A stretch of DNA of 64,000 nucleotides from Massilia polaris. Its GTDB lineage: Bacteria; Pseudomonadota; Gammaproteobacteria; Burkholderiales; Burkholderiaceae_D. Shown piece by piece: positions 139 through 36,888 of this stretch (position 1 is its first letter; the number at the start of each line of letters is the position of its first letter). Position numbers and translations under genes: made by a program. The notes beneath the pieces are model-generated. The model did not search any database and was not told the origin of the DNA. It saw only the letters and a list, made by a program, of their open reading frames with translations. The stretch lies in contig NZ_JABBGG010000007.1 in the NCBI RefSeq assembly GCF_012927275.1, forward strand, positions 62,001 through 126,000, in the 5' to 3' direction.

Positions 139-444
139 ATGACCAAGTCCGAGTTGATCAACCGCCTGGCTGAGCGTTACTCTCAGCTGGTGGCCAAGGA
201 TGCGGAGTATGCTGTCAAGACCATTCTCGATGCAATGACCAACGCTTTGGCGACTGGCCAGCGCATCGAGATCCGTGGTTTCGGCAGTTTTGCCCTGAAC
301 AGCAGGCCGCCACGCATTGGACGCAATCCTAAGTCCGGCGACAAGGTGATGGTTCCCGAAAAACGGGTGCCGCACTTCAAGCCAGGCAAACAATTGCGCG
401 AGCGCGTAGACGCGATGGTCGGACAACCGATCATCGAAGATTAA
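139..444 (+). CDS. ihfB: Integration host factor beta subunit
   Basis: A 101-residue protein of the HU/IHF family. IHF is a heterodimer (IhfA/IhfB) that bends DNA sharply at specific sites and serves replication, recombination and promoter architecture. The N-terminal helices (about residues 3-38) form the dimer body. The beta-arm carries GRNPKSG at residues 61-67, with Pro64 where IHF intercalates between bases. Glu44 and Arg46, the specificity residues of the beta subunit, are in place, which favours IhfB over HU. The length matches the family. It follows rpsA closely and ends at an intrinsic terminator. Confidence 0.95.
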
Positions 445-31166: not shown

Positions 31167-32528
31167 CTAACCGAGCGCCTTCTGCACACTCGCTACGCCG
31201 ACCTCGGCAGTACCTTCGGCCAGCCGCACCGTCAACGCTTCGCGTATGCGGATATCGTCAGGGGAGCGCAGTACCTTGCCGCGGCTGTCGCTGACAATGG
31301 CATAGCCGCGCTCAAGCGTGCGCTGCGGGTTGAGCAGCTCGAGCTGGGCCGCCAGCGCGCCCAGCGCATCGCGGCGCTGCCCAAGCTGGCTGGCGATGCT
31401 GGCAGCGCAGTGGCGCTGCTGCGATGCGAGTTCGGCGCGCAGCGCCCGCACGTCGGGACGGTGGCGCGCCCAGCGCGCGCGCAGCTGCGCCAGCGCGAAA
31501 CCGTGGCGGTTTACCGGCGCGCGCACCGCATGGGTGAGCGCGGTCGACAGCGCGACCAGCTTCAGGCGCTGGTGCCCGATCTGCGCGGAGGGACTGAGCA
31601 GGCGGCGCGTGTAGTTGTCGAGGTTGAGGTTCGCTTCCGACAGCATGCGCCGCATCGCGCGCCGCAGGTCGGTGGCGTCGCCCGACAGCGACGCCATCCA
31701 GTCGGCACGCGGGGTGGCCGCCAGTTCGGCCGCCGCCGTCGGCGTGGCCGCGCGCATGTCGGCGGCGAAGTCGGCGATCGTGAAGTCGGTTTCGTGGCCG
31801 ACGCCGGCGATCACCGGCATGCTGCAGCCGGCAATCGCGCGCGCGACTACTTCTTCGTTGAAGCTCCACAGGTCTTCGATCGAGCCGCCGCCTCGCACCA
31901 CCAGAAGCACGTCGACTTCGGCGCGGTGCGAGGCGGTCGCGATGGCGTCGGCGATCTTCTGGGCCGCCAGCTGGCCCTGCACCGGGGCAGGGTAGAGCAC
32001 GATGCGCAGGTGCGGGGCGCGGCGCTGCAGCGCCGTCAGCACGTCGCGCAGCGCGGCCGCTTGCGGGCTGGTGACGATGCCGACCGAGCGCGTGAACATC
32101 GGCAGCGCGCGCTTGCGGTCCGGGTCGAACAGTCCCTGCGCGGTCAGCTTGTCCTTCAGGCGCAGGAAGGCTTCATACAGCGCGCCGACGCCGGCCCGGC
32201 GGAGCGCCTCGACATTGATCTGGTAGTCGCCGCGCGCGCCATACAGCGTCACCAGCGCGCGCACTTCGACCTTGTCGCCTTCGCGCGGGATGAAGCCGGC
32301 GAACTGGGCGCGGCCGCGGAACATCACCGCGCGCACCTGCGCCGCATCGTCCTTGAGCGTGAAATACCAGTGGCCGGAACTGGCGCGCGTGAAGTTCGAG
32401 ATCTCGCCGCCGATCCAGGTCAGCGGAAAGCTGCGCTCCAGCAGCCGCGCCACTTGCGCGTTCAGCGCGGTCACGGTCAGTACGGGCGGGGCGGCGTGGC
32501 CAGGGTCGGCGTCGGGGATTGTTTGCAT
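31167..32528 (-). CDS. xseA: Exodeoxyribonuclease VII large subunit
   Basis: A 453-residue protein. The N-terminal OB-fold (about 15-115) has [19 protein letters not shown] and [20 protein letters not shown]-type pattern; the catalytic region (about 125-320) has [31 protein letters not shown] and [14 protein letters not shown]; the C-terminal helical tail binds the small subunit. With XseB it degrades single-stranded DNA in repair and recombination. xseB is not in the window. Length matches the family (about 455). Confidence 0.93.
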
Positions 32529-35364: not shown

Positions 35365-35461
35365 ATGAGTGAGCTGTTGAAAGGAAAGACAAAGTAGCGC
35401 CATGACCGGCGCCCGCCAGCCGCGCGCCGGGGTTGAAGCTCCGCGAAAGACGTTGCCGTGA
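35365..35461 (+). pseudogene. Probable remnant of a short-chain dehydrogenase
   Basis: ATG at 35365 begins MSELLKGKTK then stops. This start (S-LLKGKT) is typical of short-chain dehydrogenases, where -A-VTGA-RGIG follows. In a shifted frame the next bases give AMTGARQPRAG, a decayed match to that glycine motif, before another stop. It follows the chimeric gene by ten bases, in line with a cluster that lost sequence. Evidence is short and visual. Confidence 0.4.
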
Positions 35462-36205
35462 TGAAAAATTGTGCGAAGCAAGGAATCCTTTATGAATCAA
35501 GGGCTTACCAGTTTGTCAATTTGCTTGCGCACAGTGTTGTCCACAGAAGGTGTGCAAAAGGGCTACTGCGCAGCCGGCACAGCCATGGCTTATCCACTGC
35601 CGCATTTTTAGGCGGGACGATAATTCCCTTTAAAAACAAGGTACTTACCGACTGTTGGACGGCTTGCACACAGTGTTCTCCACAGAACGTGTGCAAAAGA
35701 ACGGGAGATGTTCACAGCGGCTTCATGTGGGCGTGAAACTGATCCCGAGCGCGGGTGAAAAGAGCTCAGGAACGCCGCATTAGCCCAATTGCATAAAATT
35801 TTCGCAAGGCAATAAATGTGTTTTAAATCAAGGGCCTTACGCTTGGGTAAACCTCTTCCTCACAGTCTTATCCACAAAAAATGTGCAGAAACTGGCGCCA
35901 GGACGGAATTTGGCTCAACATGAAATCGTGCCATCTTTTTAGGCGGCGTGGCTTTGTTCTTTTAAATCAACAGCTTGCAATCGTGCGCGCCCTATTGCTA
36001 ACAATTTTATCCACAGATTCTGTTTGCAACTGGGGATAAAACGCCCGTTCCAATCGGTCCCTCATCCGATTTGAACGAAGTGGCGCCGGGTTTTCCACTC
36101 TGCCTTGATTTTGATCAATGCGATAATTCATATATAAATCATGGGCTTAGATATATGCATGCCCGCTTGCACACAATCTTATCCACAATTCCTGTGCAGA
36201 ACCCT
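35461..36205. repeat. Five-copy repeat array with DnaA-box-like nonamers
   Basis: About 745 bases without a gene hold five diverged copies of a unit. Each unit has an AATCAAGGGCTTA-like block and, with start-to-start offset of exactly 42 bases, a nonamer equal or close to the DnaA box TTATCCACA. Nonamers: TTGTCCACA 35537, TTCTCCACA 35676, TTATCCACA 35868, 36007 and 36179 (last three perfect). Most are flanked by GCACACA- and -TGTGC arms. Copies 1-2 and 3-4 are each 139 bases apart and both pairs carry TTTTTAGGCGG 68 bases after the first nonamer. A sixth near-match TTATCCACT is at 35590 and TTATCCCCA is on the minus strand at 36031-36039. No tandem identity remains, so the array is old. Confidence 0.85.
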
Positions 36206-36282: not shown

Positions 36283-36888
36283 TTGCTCGCCATTATCCAA
36301 GCTGCAGGCTGGCCCATCTGGCCATTGTTGATCGCCTCCATCGTCGCCCTGGCGCTGATTATCGAACGCCTGATCTACCTGCGCCGCGCCAAGATCCTGC
36401 CGCCGCAGCTCCTCGATGAGGTGGTTCGTGTCTACCATAATGGCAAGATCACCGGGGAGGTCGTCGAAAAGCTCGAACAGAATTCGCCGCTCGGCACTGT
36501 GCTCGCCGCCGCGCTGCGCAATGTGAACTCGCCGCGCGACGTGATGAAGGAGTCGATCGAGGAAGCAGGGCGCGGCGTGGCCCACGTGCTCGAACGCTTC
36601 CTGACCACCCTCGGCACCATTGCTTCGCTGGCGCCCTTGATGGGATTGTTCGGTACCGTGGTCGGCATGATCGAGATCTTCGGCGCGCAGAACTCTACCG
36701 GGACCAACCCCGCGCAACTGGCGCACGGCATTTCGGTCGCCCTCTATAACACCGGTTTCGGCCTGGCCGTCGCAATGCCCGCGCTGGTCTTCTATCGCCA
36801 CTTCCGCGCACTGGTCGACAGCTTCATCATCGACATGGAGCTGCAGTCGGTGAAGCTGGTCGACATCGTGCACGGTGCCCGCAAATGA
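36283..36888 (+). CDS. exbB: Biopolymer transport protein ExbB (MotA/TolQ/ExbB family)
   Basis: A 201-residue proton channel. Three membrane helices (about residues 8-28, 110-130, 150-172) and the family loop LMGLFGTVVGMIEIF are visible. With ExbD and TonB it powers TonB-dependent receptors such as BtuB. The start is TTG at 36283 (MLAIIQAAGWP): CAGGAG lies six bases before it and no ATG is near; an upstream ATG at 36208 in the same frame would add unrelated residues. Its TGA overlaps the exbD ATG. The repeat array lies directly upstream; tonB is not adjacent. Confidence 0.9.
   Translation: MLAIIQAAGWPIWPLLIASIVALALIIERLIYLRRAKILPPQLLDEVVRVYHNGKITGEVVEKLEQNSPLGTVLAAALRNVNSPRDVMKESIEEAGRGVAHVLERFLTTLGTIASLAPLMGLFGTVVGMIEIFGAQNSTGTNPAQLAHGISVALYNTGFGLAVAMPALVFYRHFRALVDSFIIDMELQSVKLVDIVHGARK

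Follow-up and report, generated by a model that had tools for sequence, protein, structure and literature searches.

The gap upstream of exbB in Massilia polaris holds a tandem array of compact modules that, by analogy with DARS2 of E. coli, would probably regenerate ATP-DnaA. Five modules are found in the window, which is the stretch of 64,000 nucleotides analysed here. Each is 101 bp long and consists of a Fis-like element, an IHF site, an unconserved spacer of fixed length, and a three-box core of the DARS type (Table 1). The sequence itself establishes the modules along with their geometry, conservation, phasing, and position, and it shows genes for DnaA, IhfA, IhfB (ihfB lies inside the window), and a Fis homologue; an HU-like protein is also encoded in the genome.

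Organization of the array

In an earlier, sequence-only reading of this DNA, five pairs of a block and a nonamer had been described, each with a start-to-start offset of 42 bp, and all five lie where that reading had placed them. Three of the nonamers had been regarded as perfect DnaA boxes, and the middle nonamer is indeed exactly TTATCCACA in three of the five units. Flanking arms had also been seen to recur. The TGTGC arm is real, but its identity as a third, inverted DnaA box had been missed. The core is composed of box III (TTGCnCACA) at position 0, box II (TTATCCACA type) at +12, and inverted box I (TGTGnnnAA) at +26, the last being a DnaA box on the other strand situated +14 from box II. 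All three boxes are complete in every one of the five units, and the core of module 5 reads TTGCACACA-3-TTATCCACA-5-TGTGCAGAA. The off-consensus DnaA box TTGCnCACA is kept as box III across the family (positions in modules 1-5 are given in Table 1).

This three-box geometry occurs five times in the 928-bp gap versus none in 2000 dinucleotide shuffles. Pattern searches across all 4.52 Mb of the genome gave eight matches to the core at up to three mismatches, five of them in the array, against an expectation of about 0.2 from base composition; the reversed core pattern had no match in the same search. No Rfam match (RNA families) was obtained in the array region.

Table 1. Positions of the array modules and of selected genes in the window.
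Feature	Coordinates	Strand	Parts and remarks
Module 1	35459..35559	+	Fis-like 35459-35475; IHF site 35495-35507; box III 35525-35533; box II TTGTCCACA 35537-35545; inverted box I 35551-35559
Module 2	35598..35698	+	Fis-like 35598-35614; degenerate IHF site 35634-35646; box III 35664-35672; box II TTCTCCACA 35676-35684; box I 35690-35698
Module 3	35790..35890	+	Fis-like 35790-35806; IHF site with one inserted base 35826-35839; box III 35856-35864; box II TTATCCACA 35868-35876; box I 35882-35890
Module 4	35929..36029	+	Fis-like 35929-35945; IHF site 35965-35977; box III TTGCTAACA 35995-36003; box II TTATCCACA 36007-36015; box I TGTTTGCAA 36021-36029
Module 5	36101..36201	+	Fis-like 36101-36117; IHF site 36137-36149; box III 36167-36175; box II TTATCCACA 36179-36187; box I 36193-36201
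exbB	36283..36888	+	Nearest gene downstream of the array; first of the conserved exbB-exbD-lpxK-trm112-kdsB-adk block
xseA	31167..32528	-	Divergent neighbour in most relatives; in the window, LysR, quinone-oxidoreductase, and other ORFs stand between xseA and the array
ihfB	139..408	+	IHF beta subunit; IHF predicted to act on the modules in trans by binding them; gene for the alpha subunit outside the window

Comparison with DnaA sites of E. coli

DARS1 and DARS2 are DnaA-reactivating sequences, at which the ADP on DnaA is replaced by ATP; loss of a DARS reduces ATP-DnaA and makes initiation later, and DARS2 requires an IHF site close to its core. The sequences of E. coli DARS1, DARS2, datA, and oriC were fetched and their DnaA boxes were located. 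Read on the other strand, DARS1 is TAATACACA-3-TTATCCACA-5-AGTGGATAA and DARS2 is TTCTTCACA-3-CTATCCACA-5-GGTGAATAA. The cores of all five modules are equal to both in the order, orientation, and spacing (+12, +14) of the boxes. Equal box spacing, with box I opposite to boxes II and III, is the common structural feature of DARS1 and DARS2 (PMC5742627).

E. coli DnaA generally prefers tandem boxes 2-3 bp apart (PMC11317965), and a tandem pair alone was rejected as the mark of a DARS because such pairs occur at DnaA sites in general. The test was therefore made on the inverted third box, as the discriminating part, using 11 E. coli double DnaA boxes from the ChIP-seq list of the same study (PMC11317965). 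Box I at +14 (one mismatch) was present only in the DARS1 and DARS2 cores, whereas nrdA, polA, purH, datA, oriC, mioC, rpoH, dnaA, and the second DARS2 pair have three to six mismatches at this position. The rule of a tandem pair with an inverted box at +14 thus separated the DARS cores from the other E. coli DnaA sites. A positive control came from a survey of the phylum, in which the matches to the same pattern in genomes of family f176, one or two in each, were identical to the DARS1 and DARS2 cores of E. coli.

DARS2, in the mutH region, shares with the array the core geometry, an intergenic position on one chromosome arm well away from oriC, and an IHF site that flanks box III with matching orientation; further out, DARS2 has Fis sites where the array has the Fis-like element. 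The order of the module, namely core, IHF site, and Fis-like element, is therefore that of DARS2. The differences lie in the number of cores per locus (one in E. coli, five in the window) and in compactness. The IHF site (IBS1) of DARS2 is 71 bp from box III versus 30 in the array, which is about 41 bp closer, and its whole module spans 455 bp versus 101. The gene neighbours also differ, as does box III, which is TTGCnCACA in the array. DARS1 (bioD-uvrB) has the identical core geometry, but it works without IHF or Fis and has a single core.

The IHF site and the Fis-like element

The block AATCAAGGGCTTA fits the IHF consensus WATCAANNNNTTR, which reads TAAnnnnTTGATW on the other strand (PMC8682772). 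The repetition of this block had been pointed out in the sequence-only reading, and it is present at all five sites, where it corresponds to an IHF site; however, the IHF consensus is exact only in units 1 and 4, with one mismatch in unit 5 and degenerate sites in units 2 and 3. When 541 modules of the family were picked by the core alone, with IHF disregarded, an IHF site with at most one mismatch was situated at -30 of box III in 333 and at -29 in 60, that is, in 393 of the 541. The positions from -44 to -39 of these modules are AT-rich, at the place where an IHF site such as lambda H' would have its A-tract. The spacer between the IHF site and the core contains nearly no sequence information and is constant in length.

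An element TGC-N11-GCA with an AT-rich centre is located at -66 to -50 and resembles a Fis site. The relaxed Fis consensus is exact at this element in 84 of 333 modules, and two of the Fis positions are without conservation. NtrC-type sites also have the form TGC-N11-GCA; the AT-rich centre of the sequence favours the Fis-type reading. The string TTTTTAGGCGG, common to units 2 and 4, had been taken to indicate that the array grew by duplication of a two-unit module. The shared string is confirmed, but it is not merely a duplication scar, as it belongs to the TGC-N11-GCA element found at the same place in most modules of the family.

Conservation and copy number in relatives

The 541 distinct cores come from 128 loci with xseA or exbB, mostly of Oxalobacteraceae, and loci at which both genes are present carry one to nine cores. 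The module is found in records of Massilia, Duganella, Janthinobacterium, Pseudoduganella, Rugamonas, Herbaspirillum, Noviherbaspirillum, Collimonas, Undibacterium, and Herminiimonas. Each of the 16 loci of the same genus, which were retrieved by way of ExbB and independently of the motif, has five to seven cores, the five of the window being the lowest number, and in these loci the 42-bp offset occurs 57 times versus nine for the next-best offset. With the gap left free between 15 and 43, matches were obtained in 89 of 145 family genomes, mostly at an offset of 41/42 or 30, and the reversed pattern had no match in the same 145 genomes. In the offset-30 class, the strong box occupies position III of what is otherwise the same module. 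Single modules of an IHF site and three boxes, with the strong box in position III, are also seen at dispersed loci in several genera.

Helical phasing and chromosomal position

The spacing between modules shows a period of 10.7 bp (R=0.45) in 241 dissimilar stretches, a value reached by none of 2000 jittered sets; similar stretches were dropped for this test, and some shared ancestry remains in the 241. The distances in the window, 139, 192, 139, and 172 bp, correspond to 13.0, 17.9, 13.0, and 16.1 turns of 10.7 bp. Together with the fixed spacings and the equality with DARS cores, this phasing supports the earlier suggestion of selection on geometry. The anatomy proposed at that time, two motifs at 42 bp, was sound in itself; the identity of the IHF site, the inverted third box, the Fis-like element, and the helical phasing between units had gone unrecognised.

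Mapping the distance from the origin had also been proposed, and it was carried out on 18 closed or near-closed genomes of relatives, with few-contig genomes scaled by the contig bearing both dnaA and the locus; the assembly of the window itself comprises 30 contigs. In 17 of the 18 the locus is situated 27-38% of the genome from dnaA, corresponding to 53-76% of the replichore, and in one same-genus genome it is just 1.8% away. In E. coli, DARS2 is at about 0.21 (PMC5010248) and DARS1, according to the fetched sequences, at about 0.33, about a third of the genome from the origin. Because gene order alone could preserve the position, it is regarded as supportive only.

Alternative explanations

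The array could instead be a DnaA/IHF-controlled promoter region of the exbB-lpxK-kdsB-adk operon, coupling expression of envelope genes and adenylate kinase to the cell cycle. We consider this unlikely though worth keeping in mind, and it may coexist with the regeneration of ATP-DnaA. It stays alive because of the orientation of the modules, 567 of 572 of which point toward exbB; this bias could come from promoter control or simply from tandem duplication. The array also adjoins exbB even when other genes intervene toward xseA (in the window and in one relative locus), and the nearest module often begins 103-131 bp before exbB. E. coli DnaA regulates genes through double boxes (PMC11317965), and those of purH, polA, and nrdA are tandem and 3 bp apart, the purH pair TTACGCACAgagTTATCCACA being much like boxes III and II of the array. 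However, the E. coli promoter double boxes (nrdA, polA, purH, rpoH, dnaA) are without the inverted third box, and those of purH, polA, and nrdA are without tandem modules. Furthermore, the same module of IHF site and core is situated before priA in other Burkholderiales and at further sites, the copy number ranges from one to nine while the gene context is constant, and a simple scan of the gap gave no sigma-70-like promoter.

A DnaA sink or a datA-like inactivation locus, at which the boxes would hold DnaA and IHF would stimulate ATP hydrolysis to make re-initiation less likely, has a somewhat smaller chance of being correct. With 15 boxes in the window and as many as 27 in relatives, such a locus would take up a large amount of DnaA; IHF sites are present as well, and the datA and DARS loci of E. 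coli are also treated as titration sites (PMC12371093). Like the array, datA is intergenic and combines DnaA boxes with an IHF site, but it inactivates ATP-DnaA, its double box is without an opposed box at +14 (three mismatches), and its minimal region consists of DnaA boxes 2, 3, and 7 with one IHF site between the boxes (PMC10950094). This arrangement is not seen in the window modules, where the IHF site is 30 bp before the three-box core, and simple titration needs neither a fixed IHF spacing nor an inverted third box. Since the three-box core matches DARS and not datA, the choice between them was made for DARS. The datA/DARS-like role put forward in the sequence-only reading was right in kind, its DARS part being favoured over its datA part.

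A neutral repeat family or the remnant of a mobile element would account for the tandem layout and variable copy number but is very improbable: mobile repeats were rejected on the synteny of the array, which is constantly beside exbB across many Oxalobacteraceae genera, and the neutral reading is contradicted by conserved motifs, spacers that vary in sequence but not in length, and helical phasing. A silent or secondary replication origin, also raised earlier, can practically be dismissed, for although oriC too has DnaA boxes plus an IHF site, the core is not arranged as in oriC, a chromosomal origin has a DUE and DnaA-trios next to its cluster of DnaA boxes whereas the gap contains no DnaA-trio and no strongly AT-rich stretch (none of 40 bp with >75% AT), and dnaA is on another contig.

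The points that count against the reading as a DARS array are the IHF site being closer than in DARS2, the off-consensus box III, the two degenerate IHF sites among five, the two unconserved Fis positions of the Fis-like element, the orientation bias, the one genome with the locus at 1.8%, and the shared ancestry left in the phasing test.

Proposed mechanism

Protein binding, release of ADP, and an effect on the timing of initiation would be expected from what is known of E. coli, and the mechanism outlined here follows the model for DARS2 (PMC4245941, PMC8682772). IHF would bind each module and bend the DNA that joins the three-box core to the Fis-like site upstream of it. Boxes III and II would be occupied in tandem, and box I in the opposite direction, by DnaA that is probably in its ADP form. 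Bending by IHF may favour head-to-head contact between the DnaA molecules of boxes I and II, loosening ADP; apo-DnaA would then depart and take up ATP, promoting the next initiation. Repeated modules on the same face of the helix could multiply the output or build one larger complex. It is about an even chance that the Oxalobacteraceae array, tandemly amplified and helically phased, has its output set by module number and phasing within one large DnaA-IHF(-Fis) complex, unlike the single cores of E. coli DARS.

Distribution of DARS-type cores beyond the array

Of 370 genomes sampled from the class, 233 contain the bare core pattern, as do 110 of the 397 genomes of the phylum sample; the reversed pattern has no match in either sample. 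Many of the copies across the class are upstream of priA, and the module of IHF site and core occurs in the hemE-priA region in Rubrivivax, Roseateles, and one Zoogloeaceae record. In the genome of the window, a single DARS-type core is situated between hemE and priA (C12:426073). Two similar single cores, C1:496039 and C1:499436, are 3.4 kb apart beside a UvrD-like helicase gene, the second being accompanied by an IHF-like site in reverse orientation at -97. A second architecture is apparent in the class: 15 of 31 cores have an IHF site in reverse orientation at -96 to -99.

On contig C12 of the same genome, consensus DnaA boxes also form a duplicated unit at about 267600-268200, together with the DnaA-trio-like TACTACTACTAC and GTATACATAC. 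The unit is located between nitronate monooxygenase-like and MTA/SAH nucleosidase-like genes, about 236 kb from dnaA. This cluster looks like an origin, yet the local minimum of cumulative GC skew is nearer dnaA.

Implications

DARS-like sequences are described in reviews as conserved in many proteobacteria (PMC10380432, PMC5742627), and a betaproteobacterial DARS as such is therefore not new. Among papers on 'DnaA-reactivating' sequences, as far as titles and the openings of abstracts tell and with subscription journals sparsely covered, no report of a tandem array or of a DARS in Oxalobacteraceae was found. What is new is the tandem, phased, compact module and its location. As the rule of the tandem pair and inverted box yields candidates in the 233 genomes of the class sample, the spread of such regulation becomes testable. 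The natural variation from one to nine modules at a fixed gene context likewise allows comparisons and deletions to probe dose and geometry in DnaA reactivation. Work on DnaA recharging sites has been almost confined to E. coli, and the array of the Oxalobacteraceae suggests a way of timing chromosome replication that is yet to be studied.
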